From [Clostridium] aminophilum DSM 10710 (GTDB lineage Bacteria > Bacillota > Clostridia > Lachnospirales > Lachnospiraceae), in NCBI RefSeq assembly GCF_000711825.1, contig NZ_JONJ01000009.1, positions 1-64,000 on the forward strand: a stretch of DNA of 64,000 nucleotides, given 5' to 3'. Position 1 is the stretch's first letter, and each line of letters starts with the position of its first letter. The translations under genes and the position numbers were made by a program. The notes under the pieces are model-generated. The model had not been told where the DNA came from and did not search any database. It saw only the letters and a program-made list of their open reading frames with translations. This document shows positions 17,598 to 37,709 of this stretch, in pieces.

Positions 17598-17663
17598 ATT
17601 CTTTTAACAATTATCTTGACATTGCTTTATTTGGGATTCCAAATACTTTCTTTCCAATCTTGC
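17598..17663 (-). pseudogene. Remnant of the 3' end of an F420-beta-like gene
   Basis: These 66 bases match 22841-22908, the end of the intact F420-beta-like gene, at 58 of 66 aligned positions with one 2-base deletion. The remnant still encodes ARLERKYL-S-IK before the frame is lost. It lies directly after the DUF4956 stop and before the ferredoxin gene. It marks a recombination or duplication junction. Confidence 0.75.
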
Positions 17664-17678: not shown

Positions 17679-18350
17679 TTAAGCTGTTACATCACCATCA
17701 TGTTCAAGTAAACTCGTAGAAGTAACAGATTCCAATTCAGAAATAGTCTCTACCAATGTGTGAGGATGCATTGTTTTTACCTCTATGGCCAGATTGACGT
17801 TAGTCTGCCCAACATTTCTCGCTCTGACCTTCCAACTCCGACAACATTGATCAACAGCTTTGATTATCTCTTCTTCGTTGTATGAGCTGCTGTTCACTAC
17901 CAAAATAAGACTTTCTCTTTCCTCAGGAAGAATAGAAAAGAGAATAATGCCTATTGTAATAATAATAGATCCTATAACTGCAATCATGGCATAGCCGGCT
18001 CCGCAAACGATACCAATGGAAATGCTCCAGAACAAAAATACCAGATCCATAGGATTCTTTATGGCAGTTCTGAAACGTACAATAGATAACGCACCAACCA
18101 TACCAAGTGATACAACGATGTTTGACTGAATCGTTAAAATGACCATCGATGTAATAACTGACAAACCAAACAATGCCAAATGAAAGCTTCTGTCAAAAAA
18201 AGAGTTTTTATTAAACATCTTATAAATCAGGCAAATATACAGTGAAATCAGCGCCGTAAAACCCGCACACAGAAACATGGTTGTAATATCAAGATCACTT
18301 GTTGCATATCCTTCAAGAAATGCTTTTTCGATTGTTTCAATGAGATTCAT
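17679..18350 (-). CDS. DUF4956 membrane protein
   Basis: This 223-aa protein has four likely membrane helices: about 27-46, 55-75, 80-100 and 112-145 (for example VSLGMVGALSIVRFRTAIK and GIVCGAGYAMIAVIGS). A soluble C-terminal domain at about 150-223 is possibly ferredoxin-fold. The central SIVRFRTAIKNPMDLVFLFW block is the family's hallmark. In other Firmicutes and Actinobacteria this family is found beside VTC-type polyphosphate polymerases and CotH kinases, as here. Its biochemical role is unknown; a channel or membrane partner for the VTC-like enzyme is inference. The ribosome site is AGAGGG, 20 bases after the VTC gene. Confidence 0.85.
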   Translation of the reverse strand: MNLIETIEKAFLEGYATSDLDITTMFLCAGFTALISLYICLIYKMFNKNSFFDRSFHLALFGLSVITSMVILTIQSNIVVSLGMVGALSIVRFRTAIKNPMDLVFLFWSISIGIVCGAGYAMIAVIGSIIITIGIILFSILPEERESLILVVNSSSYNEEEIIKAVDQCCRSWKVRARNVGQTNVNLAIEVKTMHPHTLVETISELESVTSTSLLEHDGDVTA

Positions 18351-18370
18351 AATCTAACCCTCTTTCGCTG

Positions 18371-19120
18371 TTATTGATGAAATTTTCTGCACATATAGTA
18401 CTTGCTAAAAGCTGTCCACTCCAACCTCTTGATTCTTAAAGCATCTTTGATATGCAGTGGCATGACCTCGTCCCATTTCACTTCCAGCACGCAATATCCA
18501 CACGGAAGAACAGGGCGTTGTTTGTAATTATCTGTCAAAAAAAGGTCTATATCCTCAGATGAGGTGATTTTTCTGTCAAATGTGACTCTGACATTTCCAC
18601 CACTGTATATGAACGGAACCCTCTCATATGTAACAATAGTTTTAGGAAACAGTCCCCTTATTTCCAATTCGGACAATAACTTTTTCTTTTCTTCCGACAT
18701 ATCGTCTAAGATGATCGGAAAACCTCCGTGCATCAGGGTGTAACACTCTTCTTTTGTTAAACTGCAGGATTCCTTCATACACATTCCGTGGCTTTTGATC
18801 TTCTTCTCCAGCACAATACGTTCCGTATCGAAATTATAGTATCTGATTCTAAACTTTGATCGGGGATCAGCGCCGGAAAGGTTCTCTGCAAGGCAGGTAT
18901 CATTCATATCGTCAAAATATAAAGACCTGATCAGATAAGTTCCATCCCCCCGGACATGCGGGTCTCTGGACAAAACCCCCATTGCCTTAACGAGCAAAAT
19001 GCCTTCCTGCTTTGCGTCTATCAAATACTTATATTCATGACGCCATCTTTTCACATTTCCATAGCGGCTCGAAGAAACTCTGGTCTGTTTTCCGGTCTCC
19101 GCAACTGTTTCAACGCTCAT
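18371..19120 (-). CDS. VTC-domain protein, polyphosphate polymerase-like
   Basis: At 249 aa this is essentially one VTC tunnel domain. The basic and acidic residues that line the polyphosphate tunnel in yeast Vtc4 have counterparts here: RHEYKYLID, IRSLYFDD, FRIRYY, LEKKIK, VTFDRKI and VLEVKW. The family joins phosphate from ATP into polyphosphate with Mn2+, but bacterial members are mostly untested and the substrate may differ. The start overlaps the upstream gene's end by 11 bases, behind GGGG, so translation is probably coupled. It lacks membrane helices and presumably works with the DUF4956 protein just downstream. Confidence 0.88.
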   Translation of the reverse strand: MSVETVAETGKQTRVSSSRYGNVKRWRHEYKYLIDAKQEGILLVKAMGVLSRDPHVRGDGTYLIRSLYFDDMNDTCLAENLSGADPRSKFRIRYYNFDTERIVLEKKIKSHGMCMKESCSLTKEECYTLMHGGFPIILDDMSEEKKKLLSELEIRGLFPKTIVTYERVPFIYSGGNVRVTFDRKITSSEDIDLFLTDNYKQRPVLPCGYCVLEVKWDEVMPLHIKDALRIKRLEWTAFSKYYMCRKFHQ

Positions 19121-20048
19121 CTACGCACCCCAACTGAACTTTTCTCAAACCCCCTATGTTATAAGTGCCAACAATGCTACGACTCTGAATTTTGCAATCA
19201 TAGAGATAAAGATTGGCTTTTGTTGTAACAAACGCATATCTGCCGGCTATAATGTTCATTTCGCCACCGGAAACGATCAGGCTTCCACGCCCATCCGCTC
19301 CACTCTTCGTTGTCTTAAAAGCATTCTTTTCAGTAGAAATCATAAACTCACCATCGTTTACAAGAATCCCATCATTTCCATGAATAGCCGTACGCTTGCA
19401 CTTAAGTGTATACCTTCCTCCCAATATCTTTACAAGATCCTTTGAATGAACCGCATCCTTATAGTAACCGTTAACTTTCAAGGATCCCATTCCATTGAAT
19501 GTCATATCACAAACAGAATATATACAGGATTCCAAATCATCATATTTACGATAATCACCGGAATCGGAAATGGTATTCTCTGTTCCATCAACCACGGTAA
19601 TAATGAGCTTATCGGCATTTTCGCAGTAAATAGCGGGGCCGGATTTGGAAACCAGTTCCAGACCGTTTAAAAGCAAATGAACATTCTGTTCCTTCGCATC
19701 AATATGAATCATCCCTGTAAGCTTTCCGGAAAGCAGGTAATCTCCTCCCTCACTTATTTCCACATTTTCAATGCTGTTATCAAAGCTCATTATCTTCATA
19801 TCTGTGCCTTCAACCACCTGATCCAAATCAGTGATTTGGAGATAAGATAACTGACTCTGAAAATCTGTCTCAGTCATTGGAACATTGACATATCGGTATG
19901 CATCTTTTTGGGATTCATGTGAGCTTCCGATTCTCCAACAAACGAACAGGACAAGAATTAGAATCAATAAGATAAGAACTCGCCCGAACCCCCGATGTTT
20001 CCTATACAAAAAATAAAACGGTTCCAATGGACTACTGGAATATCGCAT
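19110..20048 (-). CDS. Membrane-anchored carbohydrate-binding-type (DUF4353-like) protein
   Basis: This 312-aa protein has an N-terminal membrane anchor at about residues 24-41 (VLILLILILVLFVCW) and an external domain of beta-strand repeats. These include LSGKLTGMIHIDAKEQNVHL, AIYCENADKLIITVVDGTEN, TFNGMGSLKVNGYYKDAVHS and AIHGNDGILVNDGEF. This matches the carbohydrate-binding-domain/DUF4353 family, which forms a right-handed beta-solenoid. Its ATG lies 17 bases inside the CotH gene, behind GGGAGGGG, and its end overlaps the VTC gene. The tight overlaps point to one functional unit on the cell surface. The ligand is unknown. Confidence 0.8.
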   Translation of the reverse strand: MRYSSSPLEPFYFLYRKHRGFGRVLILLILILVLFVCWRIGSSHESQKDAYRYVNVPMTETDFQSQLSYLQITDLDQVVEGTDMKIMSFDNSIENVEISEGGDYLLSGKLTGMIHIDAKEQNVHLLLNGLELVSKSGPAIYCENADKLIITVVDGTENTISDSGDYRKYDDLESCIYSVCDMTFNGMGSLKVNGYYKDAVHSKDLVKILGGRYTLKCKRTAIHGNDGILVNDGEFMISTEKNAFKTTKSGADGRGSLIVSGGEMNIIAGRYAFVTTKANLYLYDCKIQSRSIVGTYNIGGLRKVQLGCVDER

Positions 20049-22695
20049 TAATCTTCACCCCTCCCTTCACAATAGGTACATCTAATGTTTCATCATAATA
20101 CTTCGTAGTAATTTCATTTGCAGTAATTTCCCAATGGTCGAACCCCTCATCTGTGGCTATTACTGTAACCGGATAATCCGTAAAATAAGTTCCCGACCAT
20201 TCGTCCTGAATCTCCGGCTGTATGGTGTTTAGCTTAATCGGTCTCCCCGTCCTGTTTGATGTAAGCGTTACCGTTTCCTGTGAACCCTTCAGTTCAAACT
20301 CCTCTGCCATATAAGGAACTATATATTCAGAGCGATATGTGAAAAAATCAGTAATCTTCGGACTTGTGTTTCCAAATTCTTCCAGCTTTTGCTGTACGTG
20401 TTCTTTTCGAAAATCCGTGTTAACGATATCCATAAATGTAAGAACCAAATTTCGGCAAAAGATTGAGTTTTTACGTAACCCTTTGTAAAGTGGCTGGTTT
20501 ATCATTGTAGGATCAGCTTTACGACCAATCGCTGGGCCAAGAGTAAATGTGTTAACCTGCCAAGGTATATCATTTGATGTATGATCTCTTAACCTTGAAT
20601 TCCACCCCAAATCCAAATCATATAACAGCCACCGCCACCGTGTATCACCATATTCCGCATCTTCCTTAACACCACTCTTCCAAGTGAGGCAGTTCCACTG
20701 TTCATACATATCTTCATTATCCACATAAGCATTGATACAGATATAGTCTATATAACTCTGTATATCCATTACAGAATTAATCTGTGAATATGCTTCCTCA
20801 TCACTTGAATATCCGGCATCAATGATACGCAGTAAATTTGGATCGGTTTTATTCTTAACAAGTTGGATATTATCAGAGTTTAACTGGTAATACTCATGAA
20901 AATATGAATCACTGTATTTTTCAAGCAAATAAACGGAGTACCAATATTCGCCATCCAAAAAAACTTCTACCGGCATTCCATGCTGTATCCCGACATCCCT
21001 GTCTTCTACAAGCGACGGAACAAATGCATTCTTAAAGCCTTCTCTTAACACGAAAGAATGATTCGGTTTATCGTTAATGACAGGTGAATCAAACCATTTA
21101 CTGCCACTATACTTTTTTCTGGAATAGATGGAAAAACGCTTTAGTCCACGAGCACGAGTAGACGCGCCTTGAATTCTAATTCCAACAGGCTGATTCAACA
21201 TTACTCCTGAATCGTTTATAATCTCAAAGTTTGCAATCCTTTCCCATTCTTCACCTCTTTGCATATAGTTGGGAATTGGCCCATCTGTTTTAATCTCCTT
21301 TTCATCAGGCTGCATATCTTCCTCAAGGGATTGATTGTACCACTCTTCATATTGCTGACCATTTACATATATTCCGTTTTCCTCATCAAAAAGATTCCTA
21401 GGATCTGTAACAAGCGATATTACTGTTTTATCTTTATACTTTTCTAAATCAACCCAAAATGTCTTGGTTATCGTCTTACTTTGATTCCCTTCCTTATCCA
21501 CAGCCATGGCACGTACAACAAAAGCCTTATCTACCGGATCTTTCCCAATCTCTTCCTTTTGTTTGTACTCTTCCTGAACATTCTGTATCGAACGGAATAT
21601 ATTGGGCTCACTGCTTTTGTCATATACATGAATCGGTTGGCTATAACAATCAGATTCCACCGTTGGGTCACTACAATCCAAGGTATAGTAGATAGTTTCT
21701 CCCTCCTCTGCACTGAGTGAAAGATAAAAATCAGATTCGTAAAAACCACTGTCTGCCGAAAAAACAGGCGCTGCTGCTTCGAGAAGTTCAGAAACTTCCT
21801 CTGATAAACGCACTACCGCCCAGCCGTCACTGTTCTTCTGATAGCTTTCATCACGAGCTAACGCTGGCACAACAATACTATCCAGGATTTTCCCTTCTAC
21901 ATCTGAAAGATATACAATGGTGCCGCCTTTCTTTTTTATATCCATCCCTTCATCATCTTCCATCAGACATGTATAGGTATCACCGGAATGAATTCTACCA
22001 CCGCTTACACGGATATACCGCAAGTCATCCCCATTAGCTGAAAGAAACAATTTGTCCGCATCAAAAGCAAGCTCTCCGTCGTTTTTTATCACAACATAGC
22101 TGACATCATTATCCCCATCACGATCTCCGAAATTTGGTTTTGCTATTGTTTTTCGACATACTTCATTAATCGAAATAAAGTCAGCCCCCGTTCTGGAAAG
22201 TTGATACCCAATCATAATGGGAATAAGCGTTATCATAAATAAAAACAGCAAAGGTGAACGATACCTAAATTTTTTAGCTGTGTCACAATGCTTTTTTACA
22301 TACTGATAAGCCGCCCCGGAAATTACGGTGGAAATTGTTACCGAAACAAGACATGAAGTTGAAAGCCTTGTAATATCCTGATAAGAACATTTTAATGTAA
22401 GCAGATTTTTGATAGTCAAAAACAAACCATCCGAAAAGAATACATTAAACGATATAAAGAACAAGAGAAAATTGAAAAGAATATTGACAGGAGTACCGAT
22501 AGTCAGTGAACGTTTCCAGTCTTTCTGGTTTTGAAACGGAAAACTATAGATTACCAACTCCATAATTATGATAGACACCAAATGAGCAACTAACAGAATC
22601 AAAATAATTTTCTCCATCTGTTTTGTATATTCCCCTTTCTGCCAGCTATAAAAAGCTCTTGTGCATTTTTGGTTATTATCTATTCTTTTGAACAT
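20032..22695 (-). CDS. CotH-kinase-family protein with N-terminal membrane helices
   Basis: This is about 887 aa. The N-terminal third has four or five membrane helices (to about residue 180). A lamin-tail-like domain follows (about 185-320, with NEVCRKTIAKPNFGDRDGD), then a chitobiase/Fn3-like domain (about 330-440, with YYTLDCSDPT), then the CotH kinase domain (about 500-800). The last holds the substrate loop GIRIQGASTRARGLKRFSIY and the metal/ATP segment WRWLLYDLDLGWNSR. CotH kinases phosphorylate spore-coat or surface proteins. The start is uncertain: ATG at 22695 has no ribosome site, and a later ATG at 22617 (MEKIILILL) has GGGG upstream. It is the first gene of the overlapping four-gene block. 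Confidence 0.85.
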   Translation of the reverse strand: MFKRIDNNQKCTRAFYSWQKGEYTKQMEKIILILLVAHLVSIIIMELVIYSFPFQNQKDWKRSLTIGTPVNILFNFLLFFISFNVFFSDGLFLTIKNLLTLKCSYQDITRLSTSCLVSVTISTVISGAAYQYVKKHCDTAKKFRYRSPLLFLFMITLIPIMIGYQLSRTGADFISINEVCRKTIAKPNFGDRDGDNDVSYVVIKNDGELAFDADKLFLSANGDDLRYIRVSGGRIHSGDTYTCLMEDDEGMDIKKKGGTIVYLSDVEGKILDSIVVPALARDESYQKNSDGWAVVRLSEEVSELLEAAAPVFSADSGFYESDFYLSLSAEEGETIYYTLDCSDPTVESDCYSQPIHVYDKSSEPNIFRSIQNVQEEYKQKEEIGKDPVDKAFVVRAMAVDKEGNQSKTITKTFWVDLEKYKDKTVISLVTDPRNLFDEENGIYVNGQQYEEWYNQSLEEDMQPDEKEIKTDGPIPNYMQRGEEWERIANFEIINDSGVMLNQPVGIRIQGASTRARGLKRFSIYSRKKYSGSKWFDSPVINDKPNHSFVLREGFKNAFVPSLVEDRDVGIQHGMPVEVFLDGEYWYSVYLLEKYSDSYFHEYYQLNSDNIQLVKNKTDPNLLRIIDAGYSSDEEAYSQINSVMDIQSYIDYICINAYVDNEDMYEQWNCLTWKSGVKEDAEYGDTRWRWLLYDLDLGWNSRLRDHTSNDIPWQVNTFTLGPAIGRKADPTMINQPLYKGLRKNSIFCRNLVLTFMDIVNTDFRKEHVQQKLEEFGNTSPKITDFFTYRSEYIVPYMAEEFELKGSQETVTLTSNRTGRPIKLNTIQPEIQDEWSGTYFTDYPVTVIATDEGFDHWEITANEITTKYYDETLDVPIVKGGVKINAIFQ

Positions 22696-22797: not shown

Positions 22798-23784
22798 TTA
22801 CATCGAATCAAATAATGTTTGACTATTCATGACCCCAATTATTCTTTTAGCAATTTTCTTGACTTTGCGTTTTATTGGCGACCCCAAATACTTTCTTTCT
22901 AATCTTGCAAAAGATAGTTTTCTCATATCTATGAAAAAGTCATCCCTCTGTACTGGCCTAACAGCAGATTGGTATTCAGCTGAATTTCTTTTTACAGCTT
23001 GCTCGTATTCACAAGATGCATATATTATCTGCCCTTTTATACCTTCAAATATATTGGCTCCCTTTTCAGAACGAATTAAGACAAGAGATGTTCCCTTATA
23101 ATCATTTAATTCCGGGAGTACATTCTCCACACCCCAGAAATCACCAATCGAAATATCTGCAGTTCTGTAGCTTTTTGATCCACATTCATAACATGATGGT
23201 CTTAAAACATAGTTCTTTAGGAACATCTGCATGTAAGGATTTTCTTTATTGGGCGAAAACCATTGTTTCATGTCGGAGTCATGCATCAATCCAAAATCAT
23301 TCCAGCTATGTTTCTTGCTTCTGAAATTCACTTTTTTTAAAACGGCATGGTTTTTCGTTTCAAAATATTCCGCATATCTTTTCCATAATTCCGGCGATGG
23401 CACTCCGTGGCAGATAATATCCATACAGAAGAGATTCTCATACTCTTTTCCAAGAAATAACTTCAATCCATTAATCTGACATGGACAACCGGAGAACATA
23501 ACTTGAACACCACACTGAAGATCATCAAGTACCTGTCTGAATGTATCCCCTATTTTGCTCTGCAAATACTTGGAGCCTCTAAGACACGACAAGTCCGCTA
23601 TCTGATCAACTCTTCTGTAAACAGCTTCCTTACAATCTTCAGACATAGCTGTTCCGTAGACAACTCCACCATTCTTTAGATAATACTCAGCTAAAACTGA
23701 AAATATTCCGCCAGAAGAGCTCTCATATCTTATATCATTGTCTCTTGAATTACATCCATATGATGCAATAACAGAATTCATCAT
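22798..23784 (-). CDS. F420-hydrogenase-beta-like oxidoreductase without a ferredoxin domain
   Basis: At 328 aa the protein begins directly at the FrhB-like region: SSGGIFSVLAEYYLKNGGVV, LRGSKYLQSKIGDTF, FSGCPCQINGLK, CHGVPSPELW and RPSCYECGSKSYRTADISIG. The N-terminal two-cluster ferredoxin domain found in the related protein at 28996-30213 is missing. The family carries FAD and Fe-S centres; members in capsule loci are thought to modify sugar residues by redox steps, with the substrate unknown. The start follows the flippase stop by 6 bases, so it is co-transcribed. Its missing ferredoxin may be supplied by the separate gene at 17363-17569 (inference). Confidence 0.85.
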   Translation of the reverse strand: MMNSVIASYGCNSRDNDIRYESSSGGIFSVLAEYYLKNGGVVYGTAMSEDCKEAVYRRVDQIADLSCLRGSKYLQSKIGDTFRQVLDDLQCGVQVMFSGCPCQINGLKLFLGKEYENLFCMDIICHGVPSPELWKRYAEYFETKNHAVLKKVNFRSKKHSWNDFGLMHDSDMKQWFSPNKENPYMQMFLKNYVLRPSCYECGSKSYRTADISIGDFWGVENVLPELNDYKGTSLVLIRSEKGANIFEGIKGQIIYASCEYEQAVKRNSAEYQSAVRPVQRDDFFIDMRKLSFARLERKYLGSPIKRKVKKIAKRIIGVMNSQTLFDSM

Positions 23785-23790
23785 TCATTC

Positions 23791-25200
23791 CTACACTTTC
23801 TTCCTTCGCTTTACCATTTGAAAAACTTGTTTTAAACTATTCCTATTATCCAAAAAGAAAAACATCCCCGCTATCAATGACAAAATTATATCAACCGTAT
23901 TATTGGTCCAGATAACCCCAATTGCTAATACAATCCCCGTGATTAAATACGCTCCGAACACTTTCCAATTAACTCGTATCGGAAAGACTTCTCTGATATC
24001 CTTCATTCTTGTAACCCACATTACAAAAAAGCCAACAAATGTGGATAGTGCCGCTGCAAATAATCCAATGAATTTAATACAAATCAAATCGATTCCCAGA
24101 TTTACAACTGCGCCATACACACTCGTCTTGGCAGCTCCACCGGTTTTCTTTCCTTGCAGATATCCGATACTGCTAAATGAAGAAAAGCCTTGAAATACCG
24201 TTCCAAGATAAAGAAATCCGGTGTAAATTGATGCTACCTTATAGGAGTCGCTTAAGATAACATTCATCGCAAGTTTTGTTAATGGAATTAATACAAAGAC
24301 CATTCCAAACGATAATTTGTACAACTGTTGAAACACTTTCTTAGTATATTCTTCGGACTGCTCGCTTTTTCCCAATTCAGCTAACGCCATATCTGTCCAT
24401 GCATTATTAAACATTTGGAAAATGACCTGTAAAATTGAAGGGAACTTATGTGCCACAGAATAAATTCCATTAGCGGCACTATTAATGAACATTCGAACTA
24501 CGTAACGATCCGAAGCCCCCATAACCCACCAGCTTAATGCGGAAGGAACAAGTGGGATCGAATAATGAAGCATGTCTATCTGGTGCTGTTTGTAATTTGG
24601 TTTGAAATCAACTTTTCTTAAACGCTTTTCAAGAATCAAGATCAGTACGATTGTTGCATAAAGACTTATCGCATTGCTCTGAAGGAGTGCTATAACACCT
24701 TGTTTAAGAATACAAACCTTGTAGAAATTCAGTCCAACTAATACTGTAGTATGAAATAAACCCGATGAAGCGAAAAGTATCTGATTTTTCAGTCCTCGAA
24801 GCAGCTTCTGCAAACATTCCAGGATCCTGTCTCCAACCAGAATTGCAATAAAATAATAGCAGTGCCATACCGGAATAAAGAAGTTAATTCCTATTAGTAC
24901 GAGCGAACATAGTAAACAATTCCTCAGCAATAATTTATATGTTGCTGAAATATATGGTATCTCATTGCCTTTTTCTTTAATAATCCATCTGTATGCAGCA
25001 TCTGAAATCTTCATTGTTAACAACGGAGACATCAAACTTACTGTTGTTACAAGAAGATCATAGTCTCCCAAATCTTCCGGAAGAATAAAGTATGTATATA
25101 GAGGAACAATCAAGAAGTTCAGAAACTTCGTTCCAAAGCTGCCTATTGCATAGGTAATTGTTCCCGTTAATAGAGCCTTATTTTTTTTACTACTACTCAT
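23791..25200 (-). CDS. Oligosaccharide flippase, Wzx-like
   Basis: This 469-aa membrane protein has about 12-14 predicted helices and the MATE-like fold of polysaccharide exporters. It opens with KALLTGTITYAIGSFGTKFL, typical of the family. A central amphipathic section has PLVPSALSWWVMGASDRYVV and GIYSVAHKFPSILQVIFQMF. It would flip undecaprenyl-linked repeat units across the membrane for Wzy polymerisation. Neighbours on both sides belong to the polysaccharide locus. Codon use and base composition are AT-rich like the rest of the locus. Confidence 0.92.
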   Translation of the reverse strand: MSSSKKNKALLTGTITYAIGSFGTKFLNFLIVPLYTYFILPEDLGDYDLLVTTVSLMSPLLTMKISDAAYRWIIKEKGNEIPYISATYKLLLRNCLLCSLVLIGINFFIPVWHCYYFIAILVGDRILECLQKLLRGLKNQILFASSGLFHTTVLVGLNFYKVCILKQGVIALLQSNAISLYATIVLILILEKRLRKVDFKPNYKQHQIDMLHYSIPLVPSALSWWVMGASDRYVVRMFINSAANGIYSVAHKFPSILQVIFQMFNNAWTDMALAELGKSEQSEEYTKKVFQQLYKLSFGMVFVLIPLTKLAMNVILSDSYKVASIYTGFLYLGTVFQGFSSFSSIGYLQGKKTGGAAKTSVYGAVVNLGIDLICIKFIGLFAAALSTFVGFFVMWVTRMKDIREVFPIRVNWKVFGAYLITGIVLAIGVIWTNNTVDIILSLIAGMFFFLDNRNSLKQVFQMVKRRKKV

Positions 25201-25343
25201 CCAAATGATATTAACCTCTCGATTTGATTAAACGATTACAATGTCTTACTTTCAATACGGTTGAGTAAATTTCACAATCTTTTCAGCCCCCGGCTAATAC
25301 TGCTTTCTCATGATCTTGTTTCAAGCGTTCTTGCTATCCTCGT

Positions 25344-26474
25344 TTATTTTTCCAATGCATTTCTCAGCCAATTGATCGAGCGCTCACGCTCCATCTGGAT
25401 TAGTCTATCTGTTTTTTCCCAATCGATGGTTTGTCCAAATTTTAAATATCCTTTTTCTACATCAAAGTCTTTCATCTCTCTATTATCCAATTCAATAAGG
25501 TCTAAGAGATTTGAAATTCTTGATGACATTTTCTGTCTCGAAGCAGAATTCACAACAAATGGTACATGGAACAATATTGAAAAAACTGTTGCATGAAAAG
25601 AATCTGTATACACAAATGATGCATTTTTGATATACGATAACCAGTCTTCAACATCTGGTGTCATAACGATTGACGAACCATATTTTATGATATCCGCACG
25701 ATTCATAGAAAGGATTACAATCTTCATCCCCATCTTTCGGGCAAAATATTTAGCTGTTTCATAAACCTTTTTATCAAACCGTACCTGATAAAGAAGTAAA
25801 TATGTTCCCTCTATAATTGGTTTATTGCATTTTTTCAGCCAAAATTCTTGGTCAAACAGCATTGTAGGATCCAGTACAACCTCCGCCCTGATTCCCAATT
25901 CTCCAAGTATGGACTTCCCACTTTCTTCTCTGACTGATACGTGAGAAAATTCGGAAATGTATTCTCTGACACTATTCTTGTGACTATCCGGTATAATCCC
26001 ATTACCAAAACTGGATGCGTAAGATATTTTTTTTGCTTTCGTAAAAGTAAGGTAGAATGGTAAATCAAGTTGTTTTTTAGTAGTATAATCGCTATTCCAA
26101 ACCTGATCACTTCCTACCAAATACAGATCCGAAATTGGTGGATTTTCTACCAATTCATCATATGAAAAATACCGAGTAGAAAATGCACACTCTTTTTCAA
26201 TAAAATAAAAAAATTTCAAATAGTCTTTCTTTATTTTATCAAAATACAATTTTTCCCATAGGAATCTTGTAATAGCATTCTTGCCCCACAGACGGCTTCG
26301 TGATGTGCTCCTTTTCACAAATTGTTTGGGATTATATATATTGCTGCGTTCAGGAATATAATCAATAAACTGTACACCATGACCATCATTTTCAAGGAAC
26401 TTAAATAATGCATAAGCTTGTAAGATGCCACCATAATTCTTTGCTCTGCTAAAAGTAATTAAAGAGATGTTCAT
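25344..26474 (-). CDS. Polysaccharide pyruvyl transferase family protein
   Basis: This 376-aa protein has the WcaK/CsaB-type fold motifs: RAKNYGGILQAYALFKFL, YLVGSDQVWNSDY, ISYASSFGNG, VREESGKSIL and the C-terminal FVYTDSFHATVFSILFHVPF. The family transfers pyruvate ketal from phosphoenolpyruvate to sugars, giving acidic groups. Members paired with F420-beta-like proteins, as here, may have other activities. It lies between a family-2 glycosyltransferase and the flippase. A second member is encoded at 30923-32089. Confidence 0.9.
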   Translation of the reverse strand: MNISLITFSRAKNYGGILQAYALFKFLENDGHGVQFIDYIPERSNIYNPKQFVKRSTSRSRLWGKNAITRFLWEKLYFDKIKKDYLKFFYFIEKECAFSTRYFSYDELVENPPISDLYLVGSDQVWNSDYTTKKQLDLPFYLTFTKAKKISYASSFGNGIIPDSHKNSVREYISEFSHVSVREESGKSILGELGIRAEVVLDPTMLFDQEFWLKKCNKPIIEGTYLLLYQVRFDKKVYETAKYFARKMGMKIVILSMNRADIIKYGSSIVMTPDVEDWLSYIKNASFVYTDSFHATVFSILFHVPFVVNSASRQKMSSRISNLLDLIELDNREMKDFDVEKGYLKFGQTIDWEKTDRLIQMERERSINWLRNALEK

Positions 26475-26509
26475 TTTAAATACTAAACTCCACTTTTAAA
26501 TACTAACAC

Positions 26510-27448
26510 TTATTTTCTATCTATCGTTTTTACAAGGATAAGAAATACTGGCATCGCATTCAGATACAACTGATACCTTATAAGATCATTTTTCTTATAA
26601 TATAAATTAAGCTTAGTCTTATCTAATCCGCTTAAGTACTCTTTCAATTTATTTATTCTCTGTCGATATTCCTCTGGTGCTCCCCGTAAAAAGTAAATTT
26701 TAGATATCCTCAGATATGTTCTAGCCTTACGCGCTTCATTGCTATCTGTTTCGTTAGGAAAGTGAGTTTTTGCATCCTGATAGATTTTATCCGCAATATC
26801 TATGGCATCTAAGTATTTCTCGCTAAACACCTTCACTCTACTGCTTGAACCTTCTCTATGAATATAGTGATATTTATTCACATTAAGAATTCCAACTTTA
26901 CATGCTCGTGTTAAAGCAATATACGTTGCGTACAAGTCCTCATGAATCCTCTTTCCTTCCGGAAACAAATCGTCTGGAATAATACTCTTTCTAAATAGTT
27001 TGCTGCATACCGACATACCTATTGTCGACAAGAAAAAGGCATTCATCCATTCATCAACATCATTATAAACAAGCTCATGTCCATGGATCTTACCTTGTTC
27101 CATAGAAACAATATCCAGTTTTTCTGCATCAGCATACTTTAACATACATTCGTACATGTCTGTATCAAACTGATCATCAACGTCTACAAACCCAATATAT
27201 TCACCTGTGGCTATCGCTAATCCACTGTTTCGAGCAGCAGAAACTCCTTTATTTATTTGGTGGACTACTTTGCAATTATGATACTTTGCGCTCATTAAAT
27301 CACAAATCTCGCCAGATCCATCTGTAGAACCATCATTAACAAGAATAAACTCCATATCGTCCCTTAATGTCTGAGAAGCAAGTTGGAAACAACAGTCTTC
27401 AATGAAGTTTTTCCCATTATAAATTGGTATGATTACTGAAACTTTCAT
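26510..27448 (-). CDS. Family 2 glycosyltransferase
   Basis: This 312-aa GT-A enzyme carries VSVIIPIYNGKNFIEDC at the N-terminus, FILVNDGSTDGSGEICD, the acceptor region GVSAARNSGLAIATGEYIG and the metal-binding FVDVDDQFD (DxD-type). It is a cytoplasmic enzyme extending the lipid-linked repeat unit; donor and acceptor sugars cannot be deduced. Ribosome site GAGG lies about 11 bases before the ATG. Confidence 0.93.
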   Translation of the reverse strand: MKVSVIIPIYNGKNFIEDCCFQLASQTLRDDMEFILVNDGSTDGSGEICDLMSAKYHNCKVVHQINKGVSAARNSGLAIATGEYIGFVDVDDQFDTDMYECMLKYADAEKLDIVSMEQGKIHGHELVYNDVDEWMNAFFLSTIGMSVCSKLFRKSIIPDDLFPEGKRIHEDLYATYIALTRACKVGILNVNKYHYIHREGSSSRVKVFSEKYLDAIDIADKIYQDAKTHFPNETDSNEARKARTYLRISKIYFLRGAPEEYRQRINKLKEYLSGLDKTKLNLYYKKNDLIRYQLYLNAMPVFLILVKTIDRK

Positions 27449-27520
27449 AAATGCTTTTCCTCATACATTCTCAACTACTATGTTTATTTACCCTCTGTGT
27501 CTCAGCATATGTCTATATAC

Positions 27521-28906
27521 TCAATGATTCGCAGATTTCTTAATTAAACTATTATGAAGCCAGTTTTTTCCCATGTTCCAATCTCGTTTAATCACAAATG
27601 GTATTGACATAAGCATGTAAATATTAAAAGCAGCTGTATCTAAAATCAGTGACTGGTTATAGAAAGTCAAGAAAACGACTAATATACATACAACTTCAGT
27701 AAGAACAAAATACTTCTGATACCGGGTTGGTATATTATTTTTTTCTTTTCTCGAAAAAATAAAAATGAAAACAACTAATGCATAATAAAGACCCAATCCA
27801 ACGATACCTATATTGGTAATTTCAAGTGATGAGAAAAAATAGTGATATCCTAATATACTATACTGTTTATTAAATCCACTTGATAAAAAATCTGTACTGA
27901 CATTATCGGCATAGCCTAACCCTAAGCCAAACATTTTTTTGAAAGGATCCGTCAAAAAATTATTTAACATAAATGGAATCGCAGTAGTTCTATTCAGCAA
28001 ATGTTGTCCATAAGTTGAGCCGTCTGCTCCTGCATATGAAAGCATCGCCGCCATAGAATAGATAGTGTTCTTATGGCCAAAGTATCTGGAGTACAATGCA
28101 AAACCGATAGCCACAAGAGCAACTGCCGTAACTACAAGCAATATTTTTTTTGTCGTGAATCTGGTGAGCATTACACACCAAAATGCAATTAGGATAAATT
28201 CAAAATAAAAAGCTTTCATTTCGCCAATTGCTGCCATGAATAAACACAACAAAATGGGAATACTCATTCTTAACAGGCTGATTTCTTTATATACGTACTT
28301 TATTAATGTGTAAGCACATACAATACACATGAGCACATTCAGTCCCGCTGTACCACCTGCTACAGTTTTACCTGTGCTATACAACCCTGTTACTGAATCA
28401 AATCCATATCCAAGAAGGTACTCAAATACACAAGCCACAAAATTGACATACAGGAAGATTTCCAAAGACCTAACCATTTTTTTAATGGTTTCCACTTTGG
28501 CAAACCTAATACACGCTATAAAAAAAATAAAAAACCTAAAAAAAGTTCTAAAGCCCCATAAGAAAACGAAGGGATTATACAAATGTATAAAATAGCCAAT
28601 CAATGTTTCGATAAATAGTAATGCAGTAATTCGCTTTATCCAATTCAAGCCTTCTATGTTTATGTTACTTCTTCTTTCATCTTTAAACAGCATTACCATC
28701 AACGCAATCCAAGCTATATCACTCACATATGCAATTGACTCCGGAGCATCTATGATATGTATAAAAGACTTATATATACAATTAAATATTATCAAGAAGG
28801 AAATCCAAAAAGTTGGTTTGCAATAAAATTTCCTTGATATTCTCGTGTCAAATATATTATGTTTACGCAACCTGCGAACTCGTCCTTCTGCTGTAGGTAT
28901 CATCAA
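27521..28906 (-). CDS. Wzy-like polysaccharide polymerase
   Basis: This 461-aa, very hydrophobic protein has about 11-12 predicted membrane helices and a larger outside loop around residues 300-370 (AGADGSTYGQHLLNRTTAIP, FGLGLGYADNVSTDF). That arrangement is typical of O-antigen/EPS polymerases, whose primary sequences diverge widely. It is the only gene in the locus with this profile, which supports the assignment. It would join repeat units on the outer face of the membrane. Confidence 0.82.
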   Translation of the reverse strand: MMIPTAEGRVRRLRKHNIFDTRISRKFYCKPTFWISFLIIFNCIYKSFIHIIDAPESIAYVSDIAWIALMVMLFKDERRSNINIEGLNWIKRITALLFIETLIGYFIHLYNPFVFLWGFRTFFRFFIFFIACIRFAKVETIKKMVRSLEIFLYVNFVACVFEYLLGYGFDSVTGLYSTGKTVAGGTAGLNVLMCIVCAYTLIKYVYKEISLLRMSIPILLCLFMAAIGEMKAFYFEFILIAFWCVMLTRFTTKKILLVVTAVALVAIGFALYSRYFGHKNTIYSMAAMLSYAGADGSTYGQHLLNRTTAIPFMLNNFLTDPFKKMFGLGLGYADNVSTDFLSSGFNKQYSILGYHYFFSSLEITNIGIVGLGLYYALVVFIFIFSRKEKNNIPTRYQKYFVLTEVVCILVVFLTFYNQSLILDTAAFNIYMLMSIPFVIKRDWNMGKNWLHNSLIKKSANH

Positions 28907-28995
28907 AAAATCTCTCTTTCAACGAACTGAAATCTGGCTTTAAATATGAATTTTTATTTAACCTGTAATGACTTATCTATATACACTTTTTACAC

Positions 28996-30213
28996 TCACT
29001 TGTTTAAGTCTGACACATTTTTTAGGTAATTTCGCATCTTTTTTCTGCGCAGATATTTAAAGATCATCGCTTTAAATGGCAACCTATTAATAAGCGGTCT
29101 TATTACTCCAGCAATTTCGCCTTTCAATCTCCTTGGTTCCCATTTGGTTACAAGCGAATAATAATCCATATCTATCGAATCTTTGAAAAAAAACGCTCTC
29201 ATCACCGGCCGTATTATCTGCTTTTGGGGTCCACCAACAATATTGGTATTATTCTCTTGAATAACCTTTATGTTGGCTCTTCCTTCTATCTCTTTCAGCA
29301 AGTACTTCCCTTTATCTGTATGTGCCCATAGTTTCGTAGTCCCTTTATCGTCATCCATTGCTTTATTGACAGAAGCTATTTCATTAAAGTCACCAATTGT
29401 AAAATCACTGACTCTTGGAACTTCTCTGAACACACATTCATAGCAAGATGGTCTAACATTTAAATGTCTAAAGAAAAGATTTGCATGAACACGACTATCA
29501 TACTTTTGATCCATTTCTTTACCATTGCTAAAGAATACTCTTACATTCGGAGTTGAATATCCATAATGTTTGTTTCTAAACTGAACGTTTGTTACTTGAG
29601 TCTTATATTTCTTGTTTAAGTACTTAATCCACTCAGCAAACAATTTAGGAGACGATACACCTAAACATAACAAGTCTATTGTGTAAAGATTATCTATATG
29701 TCCAACCACATTTTTTAGGCCATAAACCTGACATGGAGTTCCAACAAATAAAACTACCTTTCCTTGGGCAACTAATTCTTTGATCTTGCGAAAAGTATCG
29801 TTTAGGTCGCTTTGAACATATTTTGATCCCCGTAACTCAGAAAGAGCCTTTGTATTGTCGCAGAGTTTATGACAAACAATCATATTATCATATCCTACAG
29901 CAGACACTACTCCCCCCTGTTGTAAAATATAATCCGCAATCCAAGAGAATGCTCCTCCGGCTGTACTTATCTGACGTTTTTTTTCATCCTTATACTGTAC
30001 AGCAACATAGAGGCTTTCTTTCTTCTCAGATCCCCCAATATTTTGTATCGGACAGACTCTATCACAAGCATTGCATCCAGTACACTGATCTGTGTCTACC
30101 ACGGGATACAGAAACCCTTCTTCGTCCGGTTTCATATCTATACATTTTTTCGGGCAAATACTGTAACATGCGGTACATCCACAGCACTTATCTTTATTAA
30201 CTATCTCTATCAT
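28996..30213 (-). CDS. F420-hydrogenase-beta-like oxidoreductase with two 4Fe-4S clusters
   Basis: In this 405-aa protein the N-terminal domain has CCGCTACYSICPKKCI and CTGCNACDRVCP (about residues 9-55). The FrhB-type domain follows with STAGGAFSWIADYILQQGGV, LRGSKYVQSDLNDTFRKI, FVGTPCQVYGLK, CLGVSSPKLF and RPSCYECVFREVPRVSDFTI. The fold binds FAD, with electrons entering through the Fe-S clusters. Such proteins recur in Firmicute and Bacteroides capsule loci next to pyruvyl-transferase-family genes; the substrate is unknown. It shares its domain plan with the split version at 17363/22798. Confidence 0.88.
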   Translation of the reverse strand: MIEIVNKDKCCGCTACYSICPKKCIDMKPDEEGFLYPVVDTDQCTGCNACDRVCPIQNIGGSEKKESLYVAVQYKDEKKRQISTAGGAFSWIADYILQQGGVVSAVGYDNMIVCHKLCDNTKALSELRGSKYVQSDLNDTFRKIKELVAQGKVVLFVGTPCQVYGLKNVVGHIDNLYTIDLLCLGVSSPKLFAEWIKYLNKKYKTQVTNVQFRNKHYGYSTPNVRVFFSNGKEMDQKYDSRVHANLFFRHLNVRPSCYECVFREVPRVSDFTIGDFNEIASVNKAMDDDKGTTKLWAHTDKGKYLLKEIEGRANIKVIQENNTNIVGGPQKQIIRPVMRAFFFKDSIDMDYYSLVTKWEPRRLKGEIAGVIRPLINRLPFKAMIFKYLRRKKMRNYLKNVSDLNK

Positions 30214-30305
30214 TGTTTACGTCTTTTCAATAATTTCAAAACATCCTTTTCAACTGAAACAATGCTTCTGTTCAAGCGAAATAAAAATTCTTTTGCACTG
30301 CCATA

Positions 30306-30905
30306 TCAGTTGACTTTATGCTTTTCATCAAACTCTTGCCATGCTTTTTCGATTTTCTCCGCTTTATTTAATGAACAATACTTTTTTGTGTACTCATCTC
30401 GAGTCCGTTTAAAATCATCAAAAGAACCTATTACCTTGGCTGGTACTCCGCCCACAATTGTTCCCGGCGGTACATCACGATTTACAAGACTGCCTGCTGC
30501 AACAATTGCATTCGGTCCTATTGATACGTTAGGCAAAACTCTTGTGCCTGCTCCGATAAACACATTTTCATGTACTTCTATACACCCTATATATTCCGTA
30601 TTTTCACGCTTACCAGCCATTCCATCAAAAACCCAATGAATAATATCATGCATCGTAAATTCTACATTTGCTGCAATTGCCACGTTATCGTGAATTTTTA
30701 GTCTATTACCATCTGTCGGATATTTTCTTGGCTGCCAATGTACATGCTCACCAAGAAGAGCCAGTTTTCCTTTTTTTCTAAGCCATTTTACACGTTGCTG
30801 TGCAGTAGGAATTAAAAAAAACCATGCTCTTTCTAACACTTCTAATTTCGCTTTTCGCATATACGATTTGCTAACTGATAGCGACAGATCTGAATAATTA
30901 TTCAC
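30306..30905 (-). CDS. Hexapeptide-repeat acetyltransferase
   Basis: An AGGAGA sits 6 bases before a GTG at 30905, so that start (199 aa) is preferred over an ATG at 30926 that overlaps the upstream stop. The left-handed beta-helix signature is clear in the second half: [40 protein letters not shown] and [16 protein letters not shown]. The catalytic His of the maltose/galactoside O-acetyltransferase group is probably in [11 protein letters not shown]. It would O-acetylate a sugar of the repeat unit with acetyl-CoA. Confidence 0.88.
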
Positions 30906-30922
30906 CTTTTCTCTCCTACATT

Positions 30923-32089
30923 TCATTTATCAATTCTAGTAGTTTCCAATGCGGTACGCAGATATTCAATCGATTCGTTTCTCAAAATATTCACCCTATT
31001 CTCCACTCTCGAATAATCAATTAGTCCTTGAACCGCCATCACATCTCCGTCATATCGTCTATTGCTTAACCCTAACAATGTACACAGACTATCAATTCTA
31101 CTGTTACGAGAATTTACCCCTGCATGAAATCTGTTAAATGTCAAAAACCTCTTATGATGAAGAATACTAAAAACTGAACCATGGAAGGAATCTGTTAAAA
31201 TGAACTCAGCATGTCTTATCAAATTGACAAAATCTGCTGCATCCATGTCAAACATCTGAATATCTCCGAATTTTAGATCCCTTTCAATGAAATTGTCCAG
31301 AAATGGACATGTCACTAACTTCAAACCGGTTTTGTTCTTAAATTCCTCTGCGGCCTTTCTATGGTCTTCATTTGTTCCCAAAAAATAGCAAAATACATAA
31401 GGCTCCTCAACCACTCGACGGTCCGGAATCATTTTGCCCCATCCATCGGCATCGAACAGAAGTGTTGGATCGCAAACCACCTGAGTAGTTTTCCCTATCA
31501 AGTCCTTAATGATTTTCTGACCAGCAAGTTCTCTCGTACTCAATGCCTGAAATCTCTTCAAAAACTTAGTAAAACCTGTTCTATATCTAGATGGAATATC
31601 ACTAACACCAAAACTTGTTGCATATGCAATTTTCGGCTTATTATCAGGTGCAAATTCAAGCGTATAAAAATGACTTCCCAGGTTGTGAGGCAACCAGAGC
31701 TGATCGCTTCCACAAAGGAATAAATTATAGTTCCTTGCTGTTTCTTTTACTAATGTTTCCCACCCATTATAAGGTTTCGAAAGATTCGTAAAGTATTCTT
31801 TTACAAAGCCATCAAACCGTTCATTTCTCATGGTCACATTTTTATATACCTCAGGATATCTTTTAATAACCTTTTTCTTTTTCTTTGCTGCCAGCTTGAC
31901 TTTTATGAATGATACATCCATTAATCGTGGAATGGTTTGCAGAATAAAACGAGGGGTGAGCTTCTTCTTGTATCGGATAATTTCTGAATCATATCCCAGT
32001 TCTTCAACCATCTTCACTGTGGCTAAAACCTGTAACTGACTGCCAAAGTTTTTTGTGTCATAGCATACCGCTAATCCCACTTTATCCAT
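30923..32089 (-). CDS. Polysaccharide pyruvyl transferase family protein (second copy)
   Basis: The ATG at 32089 ([19 protein letters not shown]) has GGGGG at the right spacing and is preferred over an in-frame ATG at 32101, giving 388 aa. Family motifs are [36 protein letters not shown] and the C-terminal [20 protein letters not shown]. Its partners here are an acetyltransferase and the Fe-S F420-beta-like protein. Having two diverged members in one locus suggests two different acidic or redox modifications of the repeat unit. Confidence 0.9.
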
Positions 32090-32133
32090 TAGTACCCCCA
32101 TTGATCAAATCTTATATTTCAATCCCATTGCTC

Positions 32134-33183
32134 TTATAATACCCCTATTTCTTTTAGCAATCCTTCTGTTATAACATTATCTACATTGAATCTGTCTGCT
32201 TCCTTCTGGCATTTCTTACTCATTTCCTGAAGATCGTATTTCCCTTCAATACATTCCTGAATCTTGTTTTTAAGTGCCATCACATCATGCACAGGAATAA
32301 ACAATGCTGTTTCCTCTTCTTGTAAAAAAGCCTTATTGTGTGCCCAGTCCGTAGCAATCATAGGCACCCCAGCTATGAATGCATCAATGAATACACCTGC
32401 GAGGCCTTCACTTATCCAATATGTAGGGAACAACATTGCATCATAGGCAGCTAATTGATCATAACCTTCTTTTATCCTAAGATTCAGAAAACCCTTGTAA
32501 TTAACATTTTCCAACATGCTAATTTTTCTAAAAAAAACATCTTTATATTCATTTTTAACCTTGCCATAGAAATCAATTATGTACTTATCCGCAAAGCCCT
32601 CTTCATTCAAAATTCCAGCAGCTTCAAAAATATAATCGCATCCTTTTTCCGGCATGATTCGACTTAAAAAAACTAACCGAAGTGGTTTAGTGGTAGCAGG
32701 ATACTTTTCGTTCAGCGCTGGATAATACTCTATTGGTTTAAAATTCGGCACTTCTTTCACACCGGTCACGCCACACGCTTCAAGCTGCTCTACCATCAGT
32801 CTGCTTTCAACTAATGTGTGCTTCATATAATTGACCGTCTCAGCTTTAAAATCATTATTTTGAACTTTTTGCCCAAAATTACCGCCAATTACCCAATGAA
32901 CGGAGTTACCCCTCCATCCAATCGTTTTCATAAGTTTCATCAACGGATAGACATTTTTTGCAGAAGTGGAAAGAATTAGTGTTGCATTTTTTTTCGTAAG
33001 CATATTCCATGCTAACTGTATCAAAACCCAAGGATGTTTTCTCCAATTTTTAAAATCCATTTGCAGGCACTTAACTCCGAAGGTTTCAAGTTTGCTAATA
33101 CACAGCTGATTCTTCATCGTTTCGCCGCAATCAGCAGTCTTGCCTTTATTAATCCATCCTACATAAATCACTTCATTGCTCAT
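32134..33183 (-). CDS. Family 1/4 glycosyltransferase (GT-B)
   Basis: The ATG at 33183 (MSNEVIYVGWINKG) follows GGAGAGGATGAT. An upstream extension to 33246 reads into a pseudogene and was rejected. The 349-aa protein has the GT4 C-terminal Rossmann half: RLVFLSRIMPEKGCDYIFEA, DFYGKVKNEY, YDAMLFPTYWISEGLAGVFI and DAFIAGVPMIATDWAHN, containing the EX7E-type nucleotide-sugar site. It would add one sugar to the lipid-linked intermediate. Confidence 0.92.
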   Translation of the reverse strand: MSNEVIYVGWINKGKTADCGETMKNQLCISKLETFGVKCLQMDFKNWRKHPWVLIQLAWNMLTKKNATLILSTSAKNVYPLMKLMKTIGWRGNSVHWVIGGNFGQKVQNNDFKAETVNYMKHTLVESRLMVEQLEACGVTGVKEVPNFKPIEYYPALNEKYPATTKPLRLVFLSRIMPEKGCDYIFEAAGILNEEGFADKYIIDFYGKVKNEYKDVFFRKISMLENVNYKGFLNLRIKEGYDQLAAYDAMLFPTYWISEGLAGVFIDAFIAGVPMIATDWAHNKAFLQEEETALFIPVHDVMALKNKIQECIEGKYDLQEMSKKCQKEADRFNVDNVITEGLLKEIGVL

Positions 33184-33202
33184 ATCATCCTCTCCTCTGG
33201 TG

Positions 33203-33538
33203 CTACTTGCCGAAACCTTCACTGTTTGAGATAGTGATCTCACCAAAGACTACTTTCCCGTCAACAATAAAAAATCGGTTCTGGCATGCAGAAAATCCTC
33301 GGAAAGAATCCTTGCATACTTCAGGAGTTTATCCAGTGCTTCCGGCTTTTCAATTGCTACACCACTGTTCGGATATGCCATTTCATATCCTTTGATCAAA
33401 TTCCACTCGGTTAGGATACTTAAGATTGAGCTTATATCCACACTTCAATCTGAAGAGCAGCTTCAGTTCCAATTCCTTATTTACTTTATAAAGAATATTA
33501 AACGGTGTAAGAATCACACTCTTTAACAGATTGTCCAT
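33203..33538 (-). pseudogene. TupA-like ATP-grasp protein, internally deleted and frameshifted
   Basis: The 5' part starts with ATG at 33538 and reads MDNLLKSVILTPFNILYKVN, then LLFRLKCGYKLNLKYPN, the opening of TupA-like ATP-grasp proteins. After a large internal deletion the 3' part, in other frames, reads KPEALDKLLKYARILSEDF, HARTDF, then VDGKVVFGEITISN and SEGFGK. This is the family's C-terminal LSKDF..RVDFY..G.IYFGELT pattern. A frameshift sits in the run of T in the GATTTTTTATTG stretch. Intact members are about 290 aa and add amino-acid or sugar groups to wall polymers. Confidence 0.78.
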
Positions 33539-33544
33539 CCGAGT

Positions 33545-34021
33545 TTACCCCTCAATAAAACTCTCAATACTGTCAATAATCTTCTTCGTGTTACTCTGGT
33601 ATGCGTCAAATTCATGTTCCTTCACGAACTTCAAACCGCCTTCCAGTCCCGCTGCATCATTCAGTCCACAGATCAGGTTCTGTCCTTTGAACTGTTCGAT
33701 CAGCTGAATCTGATGATCATCAACGTGTTCGCCGTACTTTGCAAGTCTTGGAACAGCAATAACCTTTTTTCCCTTCTTAACTGCACCGATGATTGCACCG
33801 GTACCCCCATGTGTAATCAGAATGTCACACTTGCCTTCCTGTGCATCGAACTCTTCTCTGTCCAGGAACTGCTTATATTCAAAATATTTCGGCTTATAAT
33901 CGCTATATCCGGTCTGAGCAAACACCTCATCCTCAATAACGCCTTTTTCAATCAACTCATCCACGGCCTGGAGGAGTCTATTAAACTGAAACTTCTGAGA
34001 TCCCAATGTAATAAAGATCAT
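33545..34021 (-). CDS. PssE/Alg13-like glycosyltransferase subunit
   Basis: The start at 34021 (MIFITLGSQKFQFNRLLQAV) has GGAGGGG 5 bases upstream, giving 158 aa. The product is the C-terminal half of a GT28 (MurG-like) enzyme with FAQTGYSDY and the donor-binding DILITHGGTGAIIGAVKKGK. It works as a heterodimer with the membrane-anchoring PssD/Alg14-like protein encoded 12 bases upstream. Together they add the second sugar, often glucuronate or galactose, to the undecaprenyl-linked primer. The neighbouring Ugd supports glucuronate as donor (inference). Confidence 0.93.
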   Translation of the reverse strand: MIFITLGSQKFQFNRLLQAVDELIEKGVIEDEVFAQTGYSDYKPKYFEYKQFLDREEFDAQEGKCDILITHGGTGAIIGAVKKGKKVIAVPRLAKYGEHVDDHQIQLIEQFKGQNLICGLNDAAGLEGGLKFVKEHEFDAYQSNTKKIIDSIESFIEG

Positions 34022-34033
34022 CTTCCCCTCCAA

Positions 34034-34495
34034 TCAGTAGATACCTCCAAGATAGATCGCCTTCGGAAAAATCTTCTTCATCTCCGGCCACTGAACATAG
34101 AACTGATCAGCGTACTTGTATAACAGCTTTCCGGTAAGAGTTGCCGATGTCACTTTAGCAAAGGACTCTATGTAAATGAGCTTCTTTCCGTGAAGTTTTG
34201 CAATCAGACACATCGGAATCGTGGCAAGAACACCGGTGGAAATGACCACGTTTGGCTTCTCTTTTCTAAAAATCCTCAAAGATATGAATGTATTCGCAAT
34301 CATTCTTGGAATGAAGGTCTTTTCTTTACGATTGACCTGCTTCAGGTAATACATTTTTTGTCCTTTGACGTTTGCTTTATATGAAGTTTCCTCCGTGATC
34401 ACAAAGCTATCGTATTTCTCCATCAATGGTCTCAGCATCACCAACTGTTCAAAATGACCACCGGAGGATGAAGCAAAACAAATTTTCTTTTCCAT
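34034..34495 (-). CDS. PssD/Alg14-like glycosyltransferase subunit
   Basis: The start at 34495 (MEKKICFASSSGGHFEQLVM) is chosen because the family begins at this SSGGH motif. An upstream extension to 34564 adds unrelated residues. The 153-aa protein has MVISTGV-type VVISTGVLATIPM, IYIESFAKV and a membrane-associating helix; it ends YVQWPEMKKIFPKAIYLGGI. It anchors the PssE partner to the membrane. Confidence 0.93.
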   Translation of the reverse strand: MEKKICFASSSGGHFEQLVMLRPLMEKYDSFVITEETSYKANVKGQKMYYLKQVNRKEKTFIPRMIANTFISLRIFRKEKPNVVISTGVLATIPMCLIAKLHGKKLIYIESFAKVTSATLTGKLLYKYADQFYVQWPEMKKIFPKAIYLGGIY

Positions 34496-34646
34496 ATAGT
34501 TTCGTCTCCGCTCCACCAAAACACCTGCACCATTCAAAACCATGGCAGAATCTTTTTTCAACAAAAAAAACCTCGCTAATCGGATAAATAAACCGGTTAA
34601 TTCAGGTTGTCAGATTTGCTTCTCCTTATTTCTGTAGATTTAAAAT

Positions 34647-34692
34647 GTCAAAGTGCCCTAAATGAGACTTGCATCTCACAAGGGCCTTTGAC
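34647..34692 (-). terminator. Long hairpin between ugd and the PssD gene
   Basis: On the minus strand GTCAAAG..GCCCT..TGAGA pairs with TCTCA..AGGGC..CTTTGAC around a short loop, followed by ATTTTAAAT. It could end the upstream part of the operon or act as an attenuator, since the gene order suggests the downstream glycosyltransferases need the same transcript. Confidence 0.65.
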
Positions 34693-34762
34693 TTTCCTAC
34701 TGTTAAATTTCTCATCTGTTCCGGGTTGGGTCTACATAGAATCTTCAAGACACACCGTATAG

Positions 34763-35983: not shown

Positions 35984-36104
35984 CGTTCTCCACTTCCAGC
36001 CTTACGGGCCGCTGTCCAACAACGAAAATTCACACTTTTCCAATATATCCACATTCAATCTCTCTTGTTTCAGAGCTTCTATCGGAATACTTCTGTCCAA
36101 AAAC

Positions 36105-37665: not shown

Positions 37666-37709
37666 AGGTTCCTCACAATTGTCAGGGTGTAAGGGGCATG
37701 AAAGATTGT

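Follow-up and report, generated by a model that had tools for sequence, protein, structure and literature searches.

A CotH, Cthe_2159, VTC and DUF4956 gene block in [Clostridium] aminophilum as a four-gene variant of a recurrent VTC-DUF4956 module

Four adjacent minus-strand genes in a 64,000-nucleotide stretch of [Clostridium] aminophilum DSM 10710 DNA (the whole stretch is called the window below), which follow each other in the order CotH, Cthe_2159, VTC, DUF4956 in the window gene calls, constitute a four-gene variant of an already described module, the simpler form of which has been published. The functional coupling of this module is well supported. The value of the finding lies in a near-obligate VTC-DUF4956 pair, in its alternative surface partners and in the testable idea of a surface-coupled polyphosphate; for the bacterial VTC proteins, which are widespread yet unstudied, DUF4956 emerges as a constant partner and a few surface proteins as clients. 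The features of the block and of its surroundings are as follows.

20032..22617, minus strand: CotH-family protein, 861 aa from ATG 22617 (Pfam; start by homology)
19110..20048, minus strand: Cthe_2159-type beta-solenoid protein, 312 aa (PF14262), one N-terminal anchor
18371..19120, minus strand: VTC-family triphosphate tunnel enzyme, predicted polyphosphate polymerase, cytosolic, 249 aa (PF09359)
17679..18350, minus strand: DUF4956 membrane protein, 223 aa (PF16316)
17598..17663, minus strand: FrhB_FdhB 3' end remnant directly downstream of the block (similarity to the intact FrhB end)
22798..42647, minus strand: polysaccharide locus upstream of the block (Pfam)

The coordinates given in the preliminary description, the overlaps of 17 bases (CotH/Cthe_2159) and 11 bases (Cthe_2159/VTC) and the 20-base gap between VTC and DUF4956 were confirmed exactly, and all four proteins exceed the Pfam cut-offs of their families. 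The block had been drawn to end at 22695; the four-gene block itself stood, but a CotH start at that position is the less likely one. Upstream the CotH frame stays open as far as TTG 22701, and it contains candidate starts at 22701, 22695 (ATG) and 22617 (ATG). The real start is probably ATG 22617, since this codon is preceded by the AGAAAGGGGA stretch and in Butyrivibrio sp. MC2021 (locus L007) the homologue has its start at the corresponding codon, which is precisely the point at which the nucleotide similarity to that strain sets in. Promoter and terminator scans of the region gave a signal no higher than in shuffled sequences.

In the BLASTN comparison with L007 the identity was 75.6% from window position 22617 to 17678, so that the similarity begins at the start of CotH, ends at the stop of DUF4956 and goes beyond neither. 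Since the match ends at these two codons, the block behaves as a cassette. Its G+C content is 0.39, the adjoining genes of the polysaccharide locus have 0.33-0.38 and the genes further out on both sides 0.44-0.58. The block stands at the end of this locus, whose upstream part encodes, as assigned by Pfam, FrhB_FdhB proteins, a flippase, GT2 and GT1 glycosyltransferases, two pyruvyl transferases, a UDP-sugar dehydrogenase, a LytR-CpsA-Psr protein and a bacterial sugar transferase (sugar-phosphate). The FrhB remnant at 17598-17663 and the 3' end of the upstream, intact FrhB gene (22841-22908) are 82-87% alike, with a local alignment score of 94 compared to 37 or less in 200 shuffles. Thus the block lies between two copies of an FrhB tail, which suggests either an insertion by recombination or the loss of a second FrhB gene. 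Further downstream lie an orphan ORF for a two-cluster ferredoxin (about 68 aa, approx. 17569-17363) and, beyond it, an acyltransferase-3-like gene (16156-17120, minus strand). The latter is probably a pseudogene, as a single in-frame TGA (16899-16897) breaks its reading frame. A D-Ala-D-Ala carboxypeptidase with choline-binding-type repeats at its C-terminus is encoded at 12905-14413 of the window.

The VTC protein matched PF09359 at 2.1e-37. Searching the PDB with the single VTC or the single CotH sequence gave no match, so family profiles were required; the VTC profile matched yeast Vtc4 (3g3q) at 6e-20. The same structure was the top solved match of the AlphaFold2 model of the protein (pLDDT 92) in Foldseek (E 2.8e-13, TM 0.64), where related folds with very different activities (ygiF, AtTTM3, class IV adenylate cyclase) matched as well. 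The window residues K31, R91, R93, K107, K116, Y165, R167 and R178 align with yeast K200, R264, R266, K281, K294, Y359, R361 and R373, respectively, which we take to be the catalytic residues of Vtc4. All eight are invariant or nearly so across 52 aligned VTC proteins, in agreement with the original assignment of a VTC tunnel enzyme with its key residues. The C-terminal E213, K215 and S239 are likewise invariant; their yeast equivalents lay outside the alignment. Apart from PF09359, neither an SPX domain nor a VTC-type membrane domain was found by Pfam, and the protein has no membrane segment. It is predicted to make polyphosphate from ATP.

The DUF4956 protein (PF16316, 9.7e-14, 51.9 bits against a cut-off of 30.6) showed a weak match to MgtC (PF02308, 7e-4, 20.4 bits), below the cut-off of 31.4. 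Its membrane part carries an invariant GxxxxxRFR motif (G86, R92-F93-R94), and the invariant arginines sit in or beside this part. It had been described as a four-helix protein; the helical membrane part was borne out, but in the AlphaFold2 model (mean pLDDT 87) a C-terminal ferredoxin/ACT-like domain is added to it, which would be cytosolic. In Foldseek only this ACT/ferredoxin-like half was matched, below significance, and the membrane part had no solved match. A likeness of DUF4956 to Vtc1 was considered and is unsupported, as no Vtc1-like match to the model was obtained. VTC has no membrane segment and DUF4956 has a membrane part; the simplest arrangement would be that of a cytosolic polymerase with a membrane partner and two proteins facing the surface.

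The two remaining proteins would act at the surface. CotH matched PF08757 at 1.8e-14 (54.4 bits, cut-off 23.8), together with Fn3_assoc and CHB_HEX_C_1, and it consists of a multi-pass N-terminal membrane part, the Fn3_assoc/CHB_HEX_C_1 region and a CotH kinase-like domain. The claimed membrane anchoring was thus found, but with three clear hydrophobic helices the N-terminus is multi-pass. The catalytic-type aspartates D664 and D695 as well as G512 (889-aa frame numbering) are invariant in 23 CotH proteins, and the profile of the family alignment matches Bacillus cereus CotH (5jd9) at 8.3e-44. Judged by the profile and by the active-site residues present, the protein may be placed in the CotH kinase family, and a kinase activity is predicted for it. 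The solenoid matched PF14262 at 8.2e-50 over profile positions 3-198 of 262; it is shorter than usual, with the C-terminal part of the profile absent. The hydrophobic segment 24-42 is its sole N-terminal membrane anchor, so the proposed anchored beta-solenoid protein is present. The Cthe_2159 proteins, the window solenoid included, are acidic (median pI 4.1), which makes direct binding of polyphosphate by them unlikely.

The survey covered 105 VTC loci, most of them belonging to other genomes within the order. In 103 of these loci DUF4956 was directly downstream of VTC on the same strand, with a median gap of 4 bases, and one of the two exceptions lies at a contig end. Order-wide (196 genomes), VTC occurs in 133 genomes and DUF4956 in 132, and of 14 control genomes taken from distant phyla the same 3 contain both. 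The distance matrices of the two proteins correlate with r = 0.92 (permutations 0.06 or less), a value which adds little beyond the linkage, since shared genome descent alone can yield it. The suggestion that the genes act as one system is strongly supported by the adjacency and by the genome co-occurrence, at least as regards VTC-DUF4956 together with one surface partner. Among the 105 loci the partners nearby on the same strand were CotH only in 44, Cthe_2159 only in 32, both in 4 and neither in 25; CotH and Cthe_2159 are usually alternative surface partners. The loci without CotH or Cthe_2159 in reach include L010, L011, L015, L018 and about 20 others, and several of them, having the highest VTC scores, may represent a different subtype. 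In about 41 of the 105 loci, genes for response regulators and histidine kinases are at most a few genes away from VTC, and some loci have GGDEF proteins nearby.

With the window CotH as query in 397 genomes of the family, three more loci with the complete set of four genes (L140, L141, L143) and another that is truncated by a contig end (L144) were found; a scan of genome contigs with VTC alone returned only 3 close relatives. The seven loci that have both CotH and Cthe_2159, the window included, cluster together in the VTC tree (SH-aLRT 95%). The labels CotH-only and Cthe_2159-only, by contrast, switch several times, and outside the group of seven the two partners were not seen together in the surveyed loci. 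Thus the window represents a minority form combining two usually alternative partners, and among the surveyed loci the co-occurrence of all four families is confined to a single clade. Three matches labelled 'Bacteriophage sp.' are faecal scaffolds without annotation; the two examined are marked UNVERIFIED and carry the same VTC, DUF4956 and CotH genes. The matches were not counted as evidence of phage carriage.

The placement of the block in a polysaccharide locus, emphasized in the preliminary description, recurs. Polysaccharide genes flank it in the window, L007 and L140, a polysaccharide-type gene lies near each of L008 and L009, and on plasmid pNP95 of Pseudobutyrivibrio xylanivorans CotH-VTC-DUF4956 lies inside a polysaccharide locus in which FrhB and pyruvyl transferases occur again; some relatives are thus plasmid-borne. 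In 13 CotH loci (clusters c6-c8) VTC-DUF4956-CotH is followed by a protein of about 700 aa, a HEAT protein and a GT2 synthase. This recurring operon is exopolysaccharide-like and is also present on a Planococcus maritimus plasmid (L161, 5389-12084). L143 has no polysaccharide locus and adjoins nucleoside-salvage genes. The family-by-family search of the own genome revealed two copies each of VTC, DUF4956 and Cthe_2159, together in the same two loci, and a single CotH, which is the one in the window. The second locus (L005, contig C11, 8598-12278) has the order VTC-DUF4956-Cthe_2159 with a 718-aa solenoid, and neither CotH nor evident polysaccharide genes were seen in its neighbourhood. An ordinary polyphosphate kinase is also present in the genome, so bulk polyphosphate storage would not need the module.

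The joint function of these families had been thought undescribed, which does not hold. CotH, a polyphosphate polymerase and DUF4956 were reported in 2020, together with DUF4832, as an accessory group of Gram-positive Pel loci in streptococci, clostridia and bifidobacteria (PMC7112168), and the genes of the Streptococcus intermedius set (SIR_1592-1594) were deleted in a 2025 study (PMC12345266). Strains lacking the DUF4956 or the CotH gene aggregated less, by more than 50% in one medium, and their Pel level was altered, being higher in the DUF4956 mutant and lower in the CotH mutant, while Pel synthesis itself persisted; no phenotype was described for the deletion of the VTC-family polymerase gene (PMC12345266). 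The four-gene form with Cthe_2159 was absent from the papers retrieved on the module, and searches for the biochemistry of bacterial VTC proteins and for CotH with polyphosphate returned only the genomic and Pel papers.

From the sequence-based features, i.e. the module with its partners, the intact VTC and CotH signature residues, the recurrence and the cassette-like boundaries, we infer a scheme in which polyphosphate would be the product, DUF4956 its presumed route of export, CotH an enzyme outside the cell and the surface polysaccharide the putative target. In this scheme the VTC tunnel enzyme would make polyphosphate from ATP at the cytosolic face. DUF4956 would anchor VTC and either couple its product or pass it across the membrane, and its ACT-like domain possibly senses a ligand. 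At the outer face the membrane-anchored CotH, as a kinase-fold transferase, would add phosphate to a surface protein or polysaccharide, and the solenoid would serve as a binding or scaffold protein at the surface polymer, so that the exported polysaccharide would be modified or tuned in a phosphate-dependent way. Surface phosphorylation or polyphosphate decoration, as originally suggested, is accordingly worded here as a hypothesis, and we regard the scheme as tentative, its probability being somewhat below even. It is opposed by the failure of the DUF4956 membrane part to match any solved structure, which leaves export hypothetical, by the acidity of the Cthe_2159 proteins, by the polymerase deletion without a reported phenotype in S. 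intermedius, which argues that polyphosphate is not essential to the output, by the second own-genome copy and L143, both outside polysaccharide loci, and by the normal polyphosphate kinase that the genome already has. The supply of ATP to CotH outside the cell is a further difficulty. As a very improbable extension, polyphosphate made by VTC and delivered via DUF4956 could itself be the phosphate donor for CotH outside the cell, where ATP is scarce; the module would then be a two-sided machine, converting ATP to polyphosphate inside and transferring polyphosphate to a surface polymer or protein outside, with the solenoid presenting the acceptor in the four-gene form.

A regulatory role, along a line suggested in the Pel papers, is rather unlikely: the module would sense phosphate, nucleotide or envelope state (DUF4956 via its ACT-like domain, VTC via phosphate polymers) and control polysaccharide synthesis, CotH phosphorylating a protein regulator. 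The ACT-like C-terminus and the weak MgtC similarity of DUF4956, the opposite Pel changes with persisting synthesis in S. intermedius and the two-component and GGDEF genes near VTC are consistent with it. However, CotH and Cthe_2159 have N-terminal anchors or signal-like segments, and their large domains are predicted to be extracellular; moreover, polysaccharide genes are missing from the neighbourhood of the second own-genome copy. It is unlikely that VTC yields something other than long polyphosphate, such as an oligophosphate of short length or a phosphorylated lipid or sugar, or that it hydrolyses triphosphates, with DUF4956 and the surface proteins using the product. The functionally diverse folds matching the VTC model and the ordinary polyphosphate kinase favour this alternative, but the best sequence and fold matches are specifically to Vtc4, with all aligned tunnel residues kept. 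Finally, the block could be a functional mobile or transferred unit parked in the polysaccharide locus without any functional tie to that polysaccharide, as the sharp ends of the L007 similarity, the FrhB tail on both sides, the nucleoside-salvage genes beside L143 and the plasmid-borne relatives would allow. This is very improbable, since polysaccharide-type genes neighbour most of the examined loci of this kind (the window, L007, L140, L008, L009 and the three-gene pNP95 relative) and the distinct HEAT-GT2 synthase operon recurs behind VTC-DUF4956-CotH. The phosphate-dependent surface scheme predicts a bacterial membrane-coupled polyphosphate system separate from polyphosphate kinase, and the feeding of CotH kinases outside the cell becomes a testable question.

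Compared with known systems, the window VTC shares the fold and the residues of the tunnel domain with the yeast VTC complex (Vtc4/Vtc3/Vtc1), in which SPX and VTC membrane domains are present; in the block neither was detected, and its DUF4956 has no Vtc1 match, but a separate membrane partner could stand in for the VTC transmembrane domain. The kinase-like domain and the conserved active-site residues of the window CotH are shared with the Bacillus spore-coat kinase (5jd9/5jda), from which it differs by its multi-pass anchor, its Fn3-like domains and a gene context without spore-coat genes. The portion of the Clostridium perfringens NELoc-2 report used here lists VTC, a 'tubulin/FtsZ GTPase', CotH, a HEAT protein and a chitin-synthase-like glycosyltransferase (PMC2879425); by its position beside VTC the 'GTPase' is probably DUF4956. 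As far as that portion goes, NELoc-2 resembles the block in having VTC and CotH with a glycosyltransferase operon, in the same plan as the 13 survey loci, and differs from it by naming no Cthe_2159 and by the synthase-type operon downstream.

The closest relative is the Pel accessory group, in which the same three families are contiguous beside an exopolysaccharide locus. The block adds Cthe_2159 between CotH and VTC, and its CotH comes first and has the multi-pass N-terminus. It is not contiguous with a pelDEADAFG locus, no DUF4832 was seen among the block neighbours scanned, and in its polysaccharide locus a flippase and pyruvyl transferases take the place of the Pel synthase. PelG is absent from the whole own genome; it occurs in 17 of the 196 genomes of the order (14 above the cut-off), and among the loci read it adjoins the block only in L107 and L109. 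The 2025 study did not find the synteny outside Pel loci (PMC12345266). Since PelG is present in so few genomes while VTC-DUF4956-CotH loci are common, our survey contradicts this: most VTC-DUF4956-CotH copies lie outside Pel loci, and a gene set known as a Pel accessory occurs far more widely.
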